From assembly GCF_900143675.1 (NCBI RefSeq), contig NZ_FRFC01000009.1, positions 1-64,000 of the forward strand: a stretch of DNA of 64,000 bases, given 5' to 3'. Shown here one piece after another: positions 55,957 through 63,135 of this stretch. The notes below the pieces were generated by a model. The model worked only from the letters and a program-made list of their open reading frames with translations. It ran no database searches and was not told where the DNA came from. Position numbers and translations under genes: made by a program. This DNA comes from Candidatus Nitrosotalea sinensis (lineage in GTDB: Archaea; Thermoproteota; Nitrososphaeria; Nitrososphaerales; Nitrosopumilaceae). How positions within the stretch are numbered: position 1 is the first letter of the stretch; each line of letters begins with the position of its first letter.

Positions 55957-57195
55957 TTATTCTCTTCTTAATGCAACCATCGGTGACAACTTTGATGCTT
56001 TCCATGCAGGATACATTCCAGCAACAATGCTAAGTGTCAGAGAAAGCAACCATACTTTGATCAGATCAATAGGATCAAAGATCGGAGGAATATGAACAGG
56101 TGGGCCCCCACCTGCTGGACTTGTAGTGGTTGCAATGCTCATGATATAACCTCCGCCAATACCAATAATCATTCCCAGCGATGCACCAAACAATCCAATA
56201 AGACTTGCTTCTACTATGAACAGTGCAAGGATAGTACTATTCTGTGCTCCTATTGCCTTCATGGTACCAATTTCTCGTATCCTTTCAGTCACCGAGTTGT
56301 ACAAAGTGGTCACAATTCCCACAGCACCAACTACAAGTGCTATGATTCCAACCATCAAGATAAATGCAGCATTACCACTTGCAGCCTGCTGCCTTACTGC
56401 AATTATGGCCTTTGGAGTTGTAGCACCAAGTGTTTTGCCAAATTGTCCTGTAATCTCATTTTGTACAGTATCAACATCGTCAGGGGTTGCGGCTGCAACT
56501 ATTAATTGGTCGTATTTGTTCACCTTGTGCAACAAATCATTTCCAGCATCCAGATTAATTATTACAGAACGATCTATCATAGTGTTTCCAGATGGTTTTA
56601 GAATCCCAGTTACTACAAAATTCTTTGTTACTGTGACTGATTTGCCACTAGAATCTGCATATGTTGCAGTTGCACGAATTGTTTGACCCAATGAAACAAA
56701 GGCATTAGCTGCACCAGGAGGATTTACTATAGTATCCCCCACTATCGCAGATGACCGGTCATTTGCTTTTACAGTAGAACCATCAACGTATTCCAGATTT
56801 GGCAATTCTACTATAAGTTTTGTAGGATCAATCGATGTAACAGATACACGTTGTGTATTACCTTGCGAATCAATAGATACTGAACCAGTATATTCAGGTA
56901 TGACATCAGATACTAGAGGTAGTGATTTTATCTTATTTACAATAACAGTATTTATTATAATGGCATTTCCTGCAGATGCATCTCTAAATCCTCGTTGACC
57001 ACTGCCAACAAAGAGAACATTTGCTGCAAGTGTATTGAATTGTTTTTCCAAAAATGCAGCTTGTCCCGCACTAAGACCATTTAATACTACAACAAGACTG
57101 CTGCCAAGTACAACCATCAGTATTGTTAATAATGTTCTAACCTTTCTGTCAACTAGGGCCTCAAAAGATAACAGAAATAGATCTTTAGGATTCAT
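55957..57195 (-). CDS. MacB/FtsX-type ABC permease
   Basis: A 412-residue permease with one N-terminal transmembrane helix (residues about 18-40), a large extracellular domain and three C-terminal helices (from about residue 275). The motif SVTERIREIGTMKAIGAQNSTI is the FtsX/MacB loop. It works with the ATPase at 59346. It overlaps the upstream surface-protein gene by 11 bp, making a three-gene operon. MacB-type systems act by mechanotransmission rather than by transporting across the membrane. Confidence 0.9.
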   Translation of the reverse strand: MNPKDLFLLSFEALVDRKVRTLLTILMVVLGSSLVVVLNGLSAGQAAFLEKQFNTLAANVLFVGSGQRGFRDASAGNAIIINTVIVNKIKSLPLVSDVIPEYTGSVSIDSQGNTQRVSVTSIDPTKLIVELPNLEYVDGSTVKANDRSSAIVGDTIVNPPGAANAFVSLGQTIRATATYADSSGKSVTVTKNFVVTGILKPSGNTMIDRSVIINLDAGNDLLHKVNKYDQLIVAAATPDDVDTVQNEITGQFGKTLGATTPKAIIAVRQQAASGNAAFILMVGIIALVVGAVGIVTTLYNSVTERIREIGTMKAIGAQNSTILALFIVEASLIGLFGASLGMIIGIGGGYIMSIATTTSPAGGGPPVHIPPIFDPIDLIKVWLLSLTLSIVAGMYPAWKASKLSPMVALRRE

Positions 57196-59359
57196 TGTCT
57201 TTCTTTTTTACACCGTCAAATATCGAGACTATGTCAGTGTCTCCTTTGGTCAATAATTGTAATTTTTTAGATCTTGACTTTTTCCTCCTAACAAGAAATA
57301 CAACAGCTGCAGCTATTCCGGCTCCTGCTACACCCATAACAGGCAAAGGAATTTGTTCAAAGATGGATGTTTGCTGGTTTCTCTGATTTGCTGTCTGAGG
57401 AACTTTACTGATAGCAACAGTGCCATTTAGTACAACATTATGAAAATTCTTTAGATCATCAGCATACGTTACTTTGAATGCTACCTGATACATTCCAGGG
57501 GTTAGTAAGTTAATTCCTCGAATAGGTATGCTAAAGGGAATAGGCGAATCTGGTGACAAGTCTCCTATGAATTGTTGTGAAGGACCTCCCCCTCTTCCTT
57601 GGAAGCCTTGACCACCCTGTCCTCCTCTTCCTTGGAAGCCTTGACCACCATTTCCAGAACCACCGCTACCTTGTCCACCTTGGAAGTTTTGACCACCTTG
57701 AGAACCAGTTGCCGGAGATCCTTGATCTGCTTGTGCAGATTGGAAAGATTGTTGATCATTTGTAGAATTTGCAAGTCTTGCAGTTCTCATGGCATCAATA
57801 AGTTGCGAAGGAGCAAGTTGTATAGTAGTATACAATCCGGTAGTACTTCCCTGATTAAGCAAATTACCAGCCAAAGTAGATGTACCTCCCAATGAAGTTA
57901 CAGACAAGTCATAGATTTGTAGTTTGATATCTCCAACTACAAATGTTCCAAGTGTAAGAGAGTTTGTCTGAGCTTGTCCCTTTGAGATATAATTTGCTGT
58001 AAGTGTAAAAGAAGTCGGAGTATTGATAAGAGTATTTGCAGCATATACTTTAGTATTTAGGACTTGTCTATCTCCTGAACTCATATTCTGAATTGTCCAA
58101 GTAGATGGACCTACTATTGACACAGATGTTGATTGCGGTACAAGAGATATAACAATATTAGACATTGGATTTGTACTATTATTTTCAACTGCAAAGTCCA
58201 GATCATCCAATAATGCAGCTGTAATCACAGGCGTAGTTGTATTTCCTAAATAAGATAAGCTAAGAGATTGAGGTGGATTTGGAGCTATAACAAGTCCAGT
58301 GCTGACATTAGTAGTAGAAAGCTTTCCCCAGGCATTTTGATAATTAATTTGTAGTTGCACTTCTTGAGTAGATCCGCTTGCGGCGGTACTAGGATATACA
58401 GTGGTGCTTATGACCGCTTTTGATTTTGCAGGTATAGTACCTAAATTGAATGTATTAGGCCCCAGATTTACTAACTGAGTTGTAGATGATTGGAGTACTA
58501 CAGAGCCTCCACTATTGCTTCCGGTACTACCCTTTGAGTTGCCAAGATTGACAATAGTAGCTACAACTCCTGTAGCATCTGCAGAACCCTTGTTATCGAT
58601 TTCTATGGAGATTGGATCCTTACTTTGAGGTACAAGGTCAGAAGTTACAGGAGATGCATCAAGTACTACTTTACCAGGAAGTACAAAAGGTACATTCAAA
58701 AGTGCAGAAGTACATTGCTGGCCAACTACTCCAACTTGGACATAATTAGCTACAACAGTAGTGGAAAATGTTCCTACTTTGGCGGTAGGTAGTACATTGA
58801 TGTTAAAATACATCGTAAATGATGCTCCAGGTGCTACTTGACCATAATAGTTACCCAGTGCAACATTGTTTGTTGTAACACGTGATGCTTGGTTGTATTT
58901 TTGAAGCAATTGAGGGTTTGCACTCTCACCAGTAGGTGCAAATCCAGATGGCAGATTAAGAAAAGCAGTAACAGATGTTATAGGATAGACTGATCCTCTG
59001 TTATTGAAAACTACGGCAAAGACAGATGGTCCTTCTCCGGGCCCTATCTCTTTTTTGACAGGGTTACTAGTAATATCAGTGTCAGTAGAAGTTCCTTGAT
59101 CTACCCAGTACGAGTCAACAACTACAGGTCCGCTATATGTTGCATCAAGAACGGTAGTTAATGGAGCAAAACAATCTTGCGTTTGTGTTATTGCCAGATG
59201 ACCATTTCCTGACGGTACAACGGTGACAACTTGCCCATATGCATCAAAAGATGCAAGCATTGTAGGGATCAATAACATGGCAATCAGAATAGGAACTGAA
59301 ATCTTTGTGGTCATTCTTTGGCCAAATAATTTTTTAATAGTACTCTTAGTTGACGACAT
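57185..59359 (-). CDS. Large surface protein of the MacB-like operon
   Basis: A 724-residue exported protein with a signal peptide (to about residue 42), several Ig-like/CARDB-type beta domains (COG1361-like) and a C-terminal membrane helix followed by basic residues. Residues about 575-635 form a Gly/Gln-rich low-complexity segment with repeated GGQGFQGR units. It has the layout of an extracellular adaptor for the permease. It overlaps both neighbours (14 bp and 11 bp), implying stoichiometric expression. Confidence 0.8.
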   Translation of the reverse strand: MSSTKSTIKKLFGQRMTTKISVPILIAMLLIPTMLASFDAYGQVVTVVPSGNGHLAITQTQDCFAPLTTVLDATYSGPVVVDSYWVDQGTSTDTDITSNPVKKEIGPGEGPSVFAVVFNNRGSVYPITSVTAFLNLPSGFAPTGESANPQLLQKYNQASRVTTNNVALGNYYGQVAPGASFTMYFNINVLPTAKVGTFSTTVVANYVQVGVVGQQCTSALLNVPFVLPGKVVLDASPVTSDLVPQSKDPISIEIDNKGSADATGVVATIVNLGNSKGSTGSNSGGSVVLQSSTTQLVNLGPNTFNLGTIPAKSKAVISTTVYPSTAASGSTQEVQLQINYQNAWGKLSTTNVSTGLVIAPNPPQSLSLSYLGNTTTPVITAALLDDLDFAVENNSTNPMSNIVISLVPQSTSVSIVGPSTWTIQNMSSGDRQVLNTKVYAANTLINTPTSFTLTANYISKGQAQTNSLTLGTFVVGDIKLQIYDLSVTSLGGTSTLAGNLLNQGSTTGLYTTIQLAPSQLIDAMRTARLANSTNDQQSFQSAQADQGSPATGSQGGQNFQGGQGSGGSGNGGQGFQGRGGQGGQGFQGRGGGPSQQFIGDLSPDSPIPFSIPIRGINLLTPGMYQVAFKVTYADDLKNFHNVVLNGTVAISKVPQTANQRNQQTSIFEQIPLPVMGVAGAGIAAAVVFLVRRKKSRSKKLQLLTKGDTDIVSIFDGVKKKDNES

Positions 59360-60119
59360 CTTTTTCTATCCTCCCATCTCGTAATAAAATTGACCTGTCT
59401 GTAGACTCTGCAAGTTCTGGATTGTGTGTTACCATTATGATAGTACGTTTGAATTTATGAGAAAGCATCTTTAACATGTCAAATACATCCTCACCTGTTT
59501 TTGTATCCAAGTTGCCAGTAGGTTCATCAGCTAAAATTATAGAAGGATTATTTATCAAGGAACGTGCTATTGCAACACGTTGTTGCTGTCCACCGCTGAG
59601 ATTTACGGGTTTTTGATTTCTTTTATCAGCAATACCAAGTGCTTCTAGAATTTTAATTGCTCGAGAATCTGCTTCATCACTTGATATGCCTGCAATTATC
59701 CCAGGAAGTTTGACATTTTTTTGTACAGTGGTCCTATTTATCAAATTAAATGACTGGAAAATAAAACCAATGCGTCTGTTTCTCATAGTTGCAAGATCTG
59801 AATCATTAAGAGAGAAAATATCAATACCATCAATGTGAATTTTACCACTTGTAGGCCTGTCAAGTGCACCAACCATGTTCAATATGGTAGATTTTCCACT
59901 TCCGGAAGGACCTATAATAGATACAAACTCGCCCTTTTTAATGGAAAAGCTGACATTATCTAACGCAACTACCCTACCTGCAGCAGAATTGTATATTTTG
60001 GACAGATTCTCTACTTTCAATGCAAGTGAATCATCATGAGTAATTTCGTTTTGAGATCTTTTTTCAACTACCAAGTCTTTTGTCATACTTTTCAAAATCA
60101 ATCCCCTTTTAGAACTCAT
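59346..60119 (-). CDS. MacB/LolD-type ABC ATPase
   Basis: A 257-residue ABC ATPase: Walker [10 protein letters not shown] near residue 74, [15 protein letters not shown] near residue 174, Walker [12 protein letters not shown] and switch histidine VTHN. It has an N-terminal extension of about 30 residues; an alternative start is ATG 60086. The predicted transcript start at 60171 would leave a 50-nt leader. The promoter carries operator copy 1. Confidence 0.92.
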
Positions 60120-60188: not shown

Positions 60189-60234
60189 TTTAGAATAAAA
60201 CGATTATCAAACCTTGTTAAGGAACAATGTTAGT
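60189..60234 (-). promoter_or_regulatory. Promoter-operator cassette, copy 1 (ABC operon)
   Basis: TATA region (60189-60201) next to the inverted repeat AACCTTGTT-AAGG-AACAATGTT (60210-60231; 8 of 9 bases match between arms). The predicted transcript start, 26 bp after the TATA centre, is 60171, exactly 39 bp from the repeat. It is 39 of 46 identical to copy 2. Confidence 0.65.
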
Positions 60235-60266
60235 GATAGGACTACAAATTTGTATCAAAATTGTAT

Positions 60267-60431
60267 CTAGTACATGTTAAAACATGCCTTGTGGTAATAT
60301 TTTGGAGGTCTTGCCCCAATTCGTATTACAACATCTCCTTCCAATAGCTTCACAGTACACTTGCGACACTCATTGTTGCCAAGAGAAGACAATCTTGCAA
60401 CATCTCTAGGTTCTAGCCTGATTTCCATCAT
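60267..60431 (-). CDS. 54-residue CxxC...HxxC zinc protein
   Basis: ATG 60431 (or 60428) to TAG 60267-60269. It has C22-x2-C25 and H47-x2-C50, a plausible zinc site, with a beta-strand core (VKLLEGDVVIRIG). It lies 15 bp after the stop of the 60447 gene on the same strand, so they may be co-transcribed. The family is unknown. Zinc-ligand spacing and operon position support it. Confidence 0.6.
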   Translation of the reverse strand: MMEIRLEPRDVARLSSLGNNECRKCTVKLLEGDVVIRIGARPPKYYHKACFNMY

Positions 60432-60446
60432 ATCAGCATCATCTAG

Positions 60447-60857
60447 TCATTTCCATGTAGTTGATTTCTTAACAATGGAGAGTATCAGAAATGGTATTTT
60501 TGTTATATCAATCTGTTTTTCTGCAGATACACATAGTATACCACATACCATCGGAAAAGTCATGAATATCACATTGTAACCGTATGAAAGGGTAAAATTT
60601 TCAGATCCCAGTTGCGAATCCTGCTCCTTGCGCATTCTTACTCCAAGAGCAGTTTCCATAAGTAGCATATCCCTATCTGCCTGGCTGAGGACAGATTGAA
60701 TCCCTTGTTTTACTTTCCAGGCAAGTATTTTGCCCTTATCACTTATTATTCCTGAAGATCTCATTTGGTCATCCAAATTGAGTACAACATCACAAACAGA
60801 TTCGAGTTCAGGTACAGAATACAAATAATTTTCAAAATTTTGAAATGTTGAACCCAT
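60447..60857 (-). CDS. Thaumarchaeal conserved protein, paralogue of 50872 gene
   Basis: A 136-residue protein with the same layout as the one at 50872: helix, DKGKILAWKVKQGI, MLLMETALGVRMRKEQDSQLG and a C-terminal YNVIFMTFPMVCGILCVSAEK strand pair. It looks like a small sensor or dimerisation fold. The promoter has operator copy 2, 39 bp upstream of ATG 60857. I cannot assign a function; the DUF6659 name is a tentative recollection. Confidence 0.65.
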   Translation of the reverse strand: MGSTFQNFENYLYSVPELESVCDVVLNLDDQMRSSGIISDKGKILAWKVKQGIQSVLSQADRDMLLMETALGVRMRKEQDSQLGSENFTLSYGYNVIFMTFPMVCGILCVSAEKQIDITKIPFLILSIVKKSTTWK

Positions 60858-60874
60858 ATGATTTTTGTTTCTGA

Positions 60875-60920
60875 TTTAAAATAAAACAATTATCGAACTT
60901 TGTTCAGTAACAATGTTCGT
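60875..60920 (-). promoter_or_regulatory. Promoter-operator cassette, copy 2
   Basis: TATA region TTTAAAATAAAAC (60875-60887) and inverted repeat AACTTTGTT-CAGT-AACAATGTT (60896-60917; 8 of 9 match). The distance from repeat to ATG 60857 is 39 bp. Confidence 0.7.
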
Positions 60921-60965
60921 TAAAGAAATATCCAGTAAAATCAAAAAATAAAGAAAAAGATGGGA

Positions 60966-61460
60966 TCAAGATTGAGATCCGCTAGGTGTTGTAGATGGAG
61001 CACTGCCAGATTGAGGGTTAGAACCCCATGAGTGTGAACCCATTGGCTTGTGCATGCCTCTTGCGCCACCCATTCCAAATCCTCCCATTCCAAATTGGTG
61101 TCCTTGAGACTGGTACAATACAGAACCAGTTGATGGATCGACAATCACAGAGTAAACCATGTTCTTGTCGTCAATTACCTTGAAACTATATACAACATAG
61201 CCCTGCATCACAGTCAAACTTCCACCTATCACTTTGCCACTAACTGCAGATGCAGCAGTGTCAGATGCAGCAGAAAATGACACCTTGACATTAGACATTA
61301 TTGTTTGTTCAAGGTTGATAGAACCTTGGATTTGCGGTTTTTGGTTTTGAGTGCCCTGTACTTGTGCAGATGCTGCAGAGACTCCCACAGTAGCAAGAAT
61401 TGCTACACCAAGAATCATGACAAGCATCTTTTTGTGTACAAAGATGTCTTTGGTATTCAT
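60966..61460 (-). CDS. Secreted PepSY-like protein with Met/His-rich tail
   Basis: A 164-residue exported protein: signal peptide to about residue 32, then a PepSY-like alpha/beta domain (residues about 45-125, with the VYSVIVDPSTGSVLY core) and a flexible tail rich in Gly, Met and His (GMGGARGMHKPMGSH). The tail could bind a metal such as copper. The promoter has operator copy 3, 39 bp upstream of ATG 61460. It is divergent from the winged-helix regulator. Confidence 0.72.
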   Translation of the reverse strand: MNTKDIFVHKKMLVMILGVAILATVGVSAASAQVQGTQNQKPQIQGSINLEQTIMSNVKVSFSAASDTAASAVSGKVIGGSLTVMQGYVVYSFKVIDDKNMVYSVIVDPSTGSVLYQSQGHQFGMGGFGMGGARGMHKPMGSHSWGSNPQSGSAPSTTPSGSQS

Positions 61461-61477
61461 ATGTACAGATACAGCAG

Positions 61478-61523
61478 TAGATTAATAAAAAATTGCTAAA
61501 CCATGTCAGTGAACAATGTTAGT
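61478..61523 (-). promoter_or_regulatory. Promoter-operator cassette, copy 3
   Basis: TATA region ATTAATAAAAAATT (about 61481-61494) and inverted repeat AACCATGTC-AGTG-AACAATGTT (61499-61520; 6 of 9 match). The right half and its flank TAGTGA equal copy 1. The repeat is 39 bp from the PepSY ATG 61460 and 18 bp from the divergent regulator ATG 61538. Confidence 0.6.
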
Positions 61524-61534
61524 GATGCATCACT
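61521..61534. promoter_or_regulatory. 14-bp palindrome at regulator start
   Basis: AGTGATGCATCACT is a perfect palindrome directly after operator copy 3 and 3 bp before the regulator ATG. It may be a separate autoregulatory site. Confidence 0.45.
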
Positions 61535-61537
61535 TTC

Positions 61538-61915
61538 ATGATGAGATATTATCATGACAGATTTCAAGTAAAAAACTTAATACACAATTTACTTGCCAGA
61601 GTAATAACCTTGTCACATGAATACAGAGACAGAATTTACATACGAAAGGATATCATACTGAAATTAACTGAACATGGGGAACTTAATCAGACATCACTTC
61701 TTAGTTATTGCGGTTTGAATTTAATGAAACACAAAGACATTCTTGAGAGTCTAGAGAGAAAAGGTTTCATAAATAGAACAGAGCAGGCGTGGGGAAACAA
61801 GAAGATAATTAAATATGCCGTTACACAAAAGGGACGTGAGTTTTGTAGAATGATTTTAGAGCCTTATGAAGATATTTTTCCAAGGAGTGAAAAACATGAC
61901 CAAGAACAAAGTTAG
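61538..61915 (+). CDS. Winged-helix transcription regulator
   Basis: A 125-residue protein with a winged helix: RKDIILKLTEHGELNQTSLLSYCGLNLMKHKDILESLERKGFI spans residues about 36-80 (helix 2-turn-helix 3), followed by the wing (KKIIKYAVTQKGREF). This form is common in Thaumarchaeota and Sulfolobus. It lies next to operator copy 3 and a palindrome, so it is the best candidate to bind the shared operator. A membrane protein gene follows 37 bp downstream. Confidence 0.8.
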   Translation: MMRYYHDRFQVKNLIHNLLARVITLSHEYRDRIYIRKDIILKLTEHGELNQTSLLSYCGLNLMKHKDILESLERKGFINRTEQAWGNKKIIKYAVTQKGREFCRMILEPYEDIFPRSEKHDQEQS

Positions 61916-61952
61916 CGAAGCATTTTTAATGCAAAAGGAGTGTTTTTAGTAA

Positions 61953-62480
61953 ATGTCAGATCCGCATAATGACTCGTCTGGAAATAATGTACCTACTGAC
62001 AAGGATGACAAGAAAGAATCTGAAAGCATTTTGAAAATTCTAGATGAATTACTATCACATACAAACAGTTCACGTCGTTTGTTTCTAATTTTTATTGCAA
62101 GTGCCTTATTTTTCGGACCAGTTGCTCTAATATTAGGAGGGGTTTTGCTTGAACACCCAGATTACAACATCAGACATCTAGAACCAGGTGGAGACAATTT
62201 TGCAAACATGCACCGAATGCCAGGGATGCACATTCAGATAGTAGATCAAAATGGGACAATAGTAAGAGAACTACCAATGTCACCTCCAGGAGGAGACAGA
62301 GTTCATACAGCACCCATATTCCTAGGATTGAGAATATTCATAATCATATCTCTAGTGTTTGCAGCAATCTTGCTGTTTGTTGCAATAAAGGAATACAGAT
62401 TCTTCTCACATTGGAACAAGAAATTCACAAGATACAAGACATTAAAGGACAAGGTAGACAAGGAATTAGACGAAGATTAG
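61953..62480 (+). CDS. Two-helix membrane protein with Met/His-rich loop
   Basis: A 175-residue protein with membrane helices at about residues 43-66 and 122-146. The loop between them, predicted to be external, holds NMHRMPGMHIQ (residues about 85-94) and several further His and Met residues, so metal binding is conceivable. Both termini are charged and cytoplasmic. No family is recognised. It shares its strand with the preceding regulator. Confidence 0.65.
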   Translation: MSDPHNDSSGNNVPTDKDDKKESESILKILDELLSHTNSSRRLFLIFIASALFFGPVALILGGVLLEHPDYNIRHLEPGGDNFANMHRMPGMHIQIVDQNGTIVRELPMSPPGGDRVHTAPIFLGLRIFIIISLVFAAILLFVAIKEYRFFSHWNKKFTRYKTLKDKVDKELDED

Positions 62481-62519: not shown

Positions 62520-62792
62520 ATGTCAGAATCTCCCACATTAGAATACATACTTTTAGTTGCACATTTGGTAGTAGGCTTTTTGTTGGTATTTTTTTCTGCC
62601 AAGGCATTTACAAGAACAAAATACAAACCAATGATACTTTTAGCTATAGGATTTACATTATTGGTTTTGGGAGAAACAGTTGTAGAATATGCGTTTAATT
62701 TCTTGCAAAATGAAAATCTACAAAAAATAATCGAGGAAGGTTTTGAGATAGCAGGATTTGCAGTGCTTATACTAGCAGTAAAGAAAAGCTAG
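62520..62792 (+). CDS. Three-helix small membrane protein
   Basis: A 90-residue protein with hydrophobic segments at about residues 8-25, 37-57 and 73-87. It ends 4 bp before a small HTH regulator gene and is probably co-transcribed with it. Small membrane protein plus HTH pairs are frequent in archaea and may act as a signalling pair. Function unknown. Confidence 0.65.
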   Translation: MSESPTLEYILLVAHLVVGFLLVFFSAKAFTRTKYKPMILLAIGFTLLVLGETVVEYAFNFLQNENLQKIIEEGFEIAGFAVLILAVKKS

Positions 62793-62796
62793 AGAA

Positions 62797-63135
62797 ATGA
62801 CTGACAATGATGAAATATTATCAATTTTGGGAGACGAATACAGCAGAAAGATACTTTCCATACTATCAAAAAATGAGATGAACGCACAGGAAATATCAGA
62901 GAATTTAGGCATACCAAGCTCTACAACATATCGCAAGATAAAGAATTTAGAGAATATCAAACTAGTAAAAAAGACCAAAGTCATAAGGACCTTGGAAGGA
63001 TTAGATGAAAGTTATTACAAAAGTCTAGTATCTGGCATAGAGATAAAATTCAAAGACGGTGAAATTTCCTGCAAGATTGAAAGATTTACTATGGATCAAA
63101 AAATTCAGAGATTGTGGGAAAAATTTTCAGAGTGA
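62797..63135 (+). CDS. ArsR-like helix-turn-helix regulator
   Basis: A 112-residue protein with a winged helix of ArsR type: DEYSRKILSILSKNEMNAQEISENLGIPSSTTYRKIKNLENI at residues about 13-54, then a beta-wing and a C-terminal helix. It has no obvious metal site. It overlaps the convergent gene by 9 bp. Confidence 0.82.
   Translation: MTDNDEILSILGDEYSRKILSILSKNEMNAQEISENLGIPSSTTYRKIKNLENIKLVKKTKVIRTLEGLDESYYKSLVSGIEIKFKDGEISCKIERFTMDQKIQRLWEKFSE

Follow-up and report, generated by a model that had tools for sequence, protein, structure and literature searches.

Our data suggest that a 22-bp inverted repeat (here, the box) upstream of the BRE/TATA of promoters in Candidatus Nitrosotalea sinensis acts as operator for a winged-helix regulator, a dimer of which would activate transcription through TFB under the control of a membrane partner; comparing sequences, we put the probability of this reading at roughly 0.6. 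The window referred to throughout is the whole stretch analyzed, 64 kb of contig C9 of the 1.6-Mb source genome (G000). It contains four boxes, each with its promoter:

60195-60231, minus strand: box 1 (60210-60231) and BRE/TATA, promoter of the ABC-transporter operon; matrix score 43.3, gene ATG 91 bp away
60881-60917, minus strand: box 2 (60896-60917) and BRE/TATA, DUF6659 gene; matrix score 41.5, ATG 39 bp away
61484-61520, minus strand: box 3 (61499-61520) and BRE/TATA, PepSY gene; matrix score 40.9, ATG 39 bp away
61892-61928, plus strand: box 4 (61892-61913, degenerate) and BRE/TATA, membrane-protein gene; matrix score 28.9, ATG at 61953

A sequence-only reading of this DNA had proposed three inverted repeats, and we found all three where it placed them (boxes 1 to 3), with the right arm AACAATGTT in each. 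In the 9-4-9 arrangement that it described, 8/9 and 8/9 arm positions pair in boxes 1 and 2 and only 6/9 in box 3; boxes 1 and 2 agree at 37/46 bases within the bounds used here rather than at 39 of 46. The repeats are beyond chance, as their consensus matched the window 3 times at up to 3 mismatches against 0.23 expected, and 0 of 100 dinucleotide shuffles reached 3. Scanning the window with a box-plus-TATA matrix derived from the genus yielded four coding-strand sites above the shuffle maximum of 7.1 (20 whole-window shuffles); boxes 2 and 3 were themselves among the training sites, which makes the scores of those two non-independent. The fourth site, box 4, had been missed previously. The ATG at 61953 begins 40 bp past its end, the arrangement recurs at many Nitrosotalea loci, and the proximal arm AACAAAGTT with its TATA is retained ahead of the membrane-protein gene in several other families. 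Box 4 overlaps the last codons of the winged-helix gene at its 3' end; because of this overlap with coding sequence, part of the conservation of the box may be at the protein level.

The genes surrounding the boxes are the following:

55957-57195, minus strand: MacB-like permease, family matches to PF12704 (MacB_PCD) and PF02687 (FtsX)
57185-59359, minus strand: large exported surface protein with a C-terminal membrane anchor, in the ABC operon
59346-60119, minus strand: ABC ATPase of LolD/MacB type, family match to PF00005
60447-60857, minus strand: DUF6659 (PF20364) protein, predicted Roadblock/LC7 (MglB-like) fold
60966-61460, minus strand: exported PepSY-domain protein (PF03413) with a His/Met-rich tail, 31.3 bits against a cut-off of 24
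61610-61915, plus strand: winged-helix protein HTH_45 (PF14947), 101 aa, candidate regulator; the longest open reading frame (ORF) opens at 61538
61953-62480, plus strand: membrane protein with two hydrophobic segments, candidate partner, directly downstream of the regulator gene

The MacB-like ABC operon and the PepSY-like exported protein had been recognized from the sequence alone, and the families listed above bear both out; the surface protein that was placed with the operon does lie in it and matched no family above cut-off. For what had been called a small sensor-like protein, DUF6659 with a predicted Roadblock/LC7 fold replaces "sensor-like": its AlphaFold model (mean pLDDT 79) had MglB and Roadblock proteins as top PDB matches (E about 3e-6). 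Positions 62520-63135 of the window encode a membrane protein of the DUF7521 family and, after it, an ArsR/TrmB-like protein (62797-63135).

We found that the box-plus-TATA pattern has 13 matches in the source genome at up to 3 mismatches, compared to 0 for a reversed-pattern control, and that 11 of the 13 stand before a correctly oriented ORF. Two of the 13 were dropped (box 2 read backwards, and C1:198300, which has no convincing box), as were several weak matches inside coding DNA (L006, L007, and L008). Pattern searches of the genome, together with a matrix scan that covered the window, point to about 12 box promoters, mostly of surface and exported protein genes:

Window, minus, minus, minus, and plus strands: ABC/MacB operon, DUF6659, PepSY, and membrane partner (box promoters 1, 2, 3, and 4)
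C4:16944: box promoter of a PepSY paralogue
C4:16278 (L185): box promoter of a 45-aa exported peptide
C3:613795: box promoter of a 76-aa protein
C4:89111: box promoter of an exported surface protein; at the first start found, the long ORF opens 87 bp away
C5:156222: box promoter of a 95-aa winged-helix protein
C3:430243: box promoter of an exported Met/His-rich protein
C3:532265: box promoter of a 165-aa membrane protein adjoining a multicopper oxidase gene
C3:604420: box promoter of an exported protein of about 335 aa

In several Nitrosotalea genomes, exported peptides of 41-47 aa that form a family marked by a motif like FYGDIFSAxAQM begin 37-38 bp past a box (L185, at G000 C4:16278, and L211, L179, L089, L095, and L099); these peptides are so short that annotation may miss them.

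Within the genus Nitrosotalea, box and TATA occur together in 36 of 37 genomes (19/19 of good quality), a sample that includes incomplete metagenome assemblies, with 229 matches summed and 0 for the reversed pattern. On the gene strand, the layout is the box, 4 bp, AA, and then a TATA beginning approximately 10 bp after the box. The box and TATA columns align without gaps over 84 sites from Nitrosotalea loci, and the distance between them is therefore constant. The start codon lies 37 bp away at 30 of these sites, 38 bp at 12, 39 bp at 20, and elsewhere within 35-42 bp at the remainder; the sites were chosen for an ATG at 35-42 bp, which restricts the start-codon range and leaves the box-TATA result unaffected. 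A spacing of exactly 39 bp from repeat to start, as had been claimed, is correct for boxes 2 and 3, while for box 1 it leans on a predicted transcript start. As a rule it gives way, since over the genus sites it is the distance to TATA that stays fixed and the start codon that moves. Searching the genome and its relatives for the repeat at the same promoter distance placed it upstream of the BRE/TATA in one register, both genome-wide and genus-wide. BRE positions -3, -2, and -1 are purines in 6, 12, and 11 of 43 distinct box promoters compared to 15, 18, and 19 of 27 other promoters, with the box promoters being interrelated and TATA assigned with a simple finder. This purine-poor stretch departs from the genome norm and would fit a weak BRE at box promoters.

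We propose that the winged-helix regulator would bind the 22-bp repeat as a dimer directly upstream of the BRE/TATA, that the bound regulator would activate transcription by assisting TFB in binding a poor BRE, and that the two-helix membrane protein (61953) may hold or gate the regulator according to the state of the envelope or membrane. In archaea, an activator usually binds upstream of the BRE/TATA and from there recruits TBP or TFB, and a repressor has its site inside the promoter or downstream of it (PMC5937170, PMC4158304). Given this regulator, activation by TFB recruitment, as with TFB-RF1, is the direction that we favor and consider fairly probable, because the box is upstream of the BRE/TATA and the BRE departs from the genome norm. 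The same regulator on the same operator could instead be a repressor that sits beside the BRE and blocks TFB/TBP until a signal releases it. Only about 4 bp separate the end of the box from the conserved AA in the BRE region, so that a dimer could crowd TFB, and most characterized archaeal regulators are repressors (PMC4158304). We nevertheless regard repression as unlikely, since every aligned site lies upstream of the BRE/TATA in a constant register, whereas the sites of repressors are usually found over the promoter or downstream of it (PMC5937170), and since the altered BRE positions are those expected of activator-dependent promoters.

The box regulator itself is, on present comparisons, best identified with the winged-helix protein at 61610-61915. 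It matches PF14947 at 31.7 bits (gathering cut-off 25.5), and it falls below the NCBIfam cut-off for the Sso10a chromatin family (NF053610; 29.4 bits against 60). Translation probably starts at the TTG at 61610 rather than at 61538, because the similarity to homologues sets in at residue 25, a codon at which several of them carry ATG. The predicted structure has the MarR-like winged-helix form, at a mean pLDDT of 86, with Sso10a-2 among its structural matches, and a sequence search of the PDB returned no significant relative. In the predicted recognition helix, N37 and H41 are invariant and K40 is nearly so. Named relatives of the gene come from Candidatus Nitrosotalea species and related metagenome assemblies.

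We found that a homologue of this gene adjoins the box beyond the genus. At the order level, in a sample that again includes incomplete metagenome assemblies, box and TATA occur in 10 of 151 genomes, all 10 of which have the homologue, and the homologue itself occurs in 61/151. The sole pattern match in a genome of another family (G053) sits between the homologue and a PepSY gene, and in two other genomes from distant families (G096 and G139) no more than about 0.5 kb separates the matches from the homologue. Among 52 non-redundant homologue loci outside the genus used for matrix training, 40 have a matrix score of at least 0 near the homologue, a score that equally sized control regions taken within these loci reach in 2 of 115 cases (Mann-Whitney p = 3e-20); 19/52 have a start codon and ORF 37-39 bp from the box, most commonly at 38, compared to 5/115 (Fisher p = 2e-7); the loci are akin to one another, so these p-values are overstated, yet the contrast is large. 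The matrix scan found no box at 12 of the 52, and many boxes outside Nitrosotalea are quite degenerate. The genes placed at this spacing from boxes outside the genus encode mostly exported proteins, often PepSY. A box at L156 (G014 C19:72076) precedes a protein that bears a twin-arginine signal and weakly resembles the Rieske N-terminal family. A near-perfect box with a different TATA register occurs in another family (L157, G030 C7:62294), and no regulator homologue was detected in that genome.

These data back the earlier suggestions that one regulator acts upstream of the BRE/TATA and that the winged-helix gene, then placed at 61538, is the candidate for it: the first is favored by the shared register and by the box lying beside the homologue in other families, the second by the locus counts. 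The homologue is conserved along with its neighbors, so linkage alone does not prove binding. The 95-aa winged-helix protein (C5:156222) or the ArsR/TrmB-like protein could bind the boxes instead, which we consider improbable. The former belongs to HTH_45 and in several species carries a box at its own promoter, as for an autoregulator, and the latter is encoded close to the boxes. However, the box genomes G096, G148, and G157 lack a match to the 95-aa protein at E<=1e-8, and it has matches in pattern-less genomes such as G061, G125, G025, G030, and G033; we rejected it because its occurrence does not track the box. Among the fetched loci, only two have a high-identity ArsR/TrmB-like protein near the module, and a close pair of it with the DUF7521 gene was seen there in only two; it was likewise set aside. 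The bases common to boxes 1 and 2 (TATA included) and the paralogy of some target genes might recall a promoter segment that was duplicated or moved around and has no dedicated regulator. Such an origin of the repeats is very improbable, because the targets are mostly unrelated, conservation is confined to the box and promoter positions in one orientation, and the pattern is kept genus-wide without control matches and beside one regulator gene in distant families.

A Nitrosotalea paralogue of the candidate winged-helix regulator (C5:77485, 54% identical) has no full box nearby. In several Nitrosopumilaceae (L248-L260), a half-box, TTAACAATGTTAAGCAA, with a TATA lies beside a paralogous winged-helix gene, 37-38 bp before a 54-57-aa ORF, which is suggestive only.

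The membrane protein at 61953-62480 is a candidate partner of the winged-helix regulator because of its synteny and its conserved ends. Across families, its gene comes next after that of the regulator in most loci where the contig reaches, and the protein matched no Pfam family. Across 67 aligned sequences, the conserved positions lie before segment 1 and after segment 2, while the loop varies in length and sequence. Charged tails suggest that both ends are cytoplasmic; if so, the parts able to touch the regulator would be the conserved ones.

By analogy, the closest case is TFB-RF1 of Pyrococcus furiosus (PMC5937170). There too a palindrome stands at a conserved distance upstream of the BRE and TATA (here the register is fixed in the genus), the BRE is weak (here it may be, given purines depleted at -3 to -1 in related promoters with TATA from a simple finder), the regulator is encoded with a membrane protein (multi-spanning in that case), and an ABC exporter operon is among the targets. 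The two systems differ in motif (TCTG-N5-CAGA there, AAC-N3-GTT-N4-AAC-N3-GTT here), in number of targets (two operons compared to about twelve promoters here), in the membrane protein, which in P. furiosus has four segments and precedes the regulator whereas here it has two and follows it, and in the exporter, ABC2-type rather than MacB-type (PMC5937170). ArnR/ArnR1 of Sulfolobus acidocaldarius, a helix-turn-helix activator with membrane segments, also acts through inverted-repeat boxes upstream of the BRE/TATA on surface structures, but its boxes (TCGAC-N5-GTCGA) are unlike ours and its DNA-binding and membrane parts form one polypeptide, whereas here they are separate ORFs (PMC6396743). TrmBL1/Tgr and its TGM motif share the principle that operator position relative to the BRE/TATA sets the direction of regulation, upstream meaning activation; the motif is different, the targets are metabolic, and TrmBL1 has a sugar-binding domain whereas our candidate has no effector domain (PMC4158304). 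The candidate resembles HTH_45/Sso10a winged-helix proteins in family and predicted structure, but unlike Sso10a it appears tied to specific promoters rather than to general chromatin. We rate the system, from its sequence features, as a variant on a known type of archaeal one-component regulon. We found no earlier description of it, nor of any regulon with a defined operator in ammonia-oxidizing archaea, in the open-access literature, and papers on Nitrosotalea acidophily (PMC4836417) and on copper limitation do not mention the module.

A wider reading, which we hold tentatively and judge doubtful as a whole, is that a split membrane-gated activator, made of a winged helix and a separate two-helix partner, is old in Nitrososphaeria, runs exported proteins via an operator locked to the BRE/TATA, and expanded to a dozen promoters in acid-soil Nitrosotalea as an envelope-stress or acid response; the link to acid soil is hypothetical and is drawn because the regulon is largest in Nitrosotalea. 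Very little is known of specific transcription regulation in ammonia-oxidizing archaea. For tests in cultured Nitrosotalea, our data supply an operator and a list of its targets, with candidates for the regulator and for its membrane partner. They also name a set of surface and exported proteins whose response is probably a joint one, which may offer a way into the question of how these archaea cope with acid soil.
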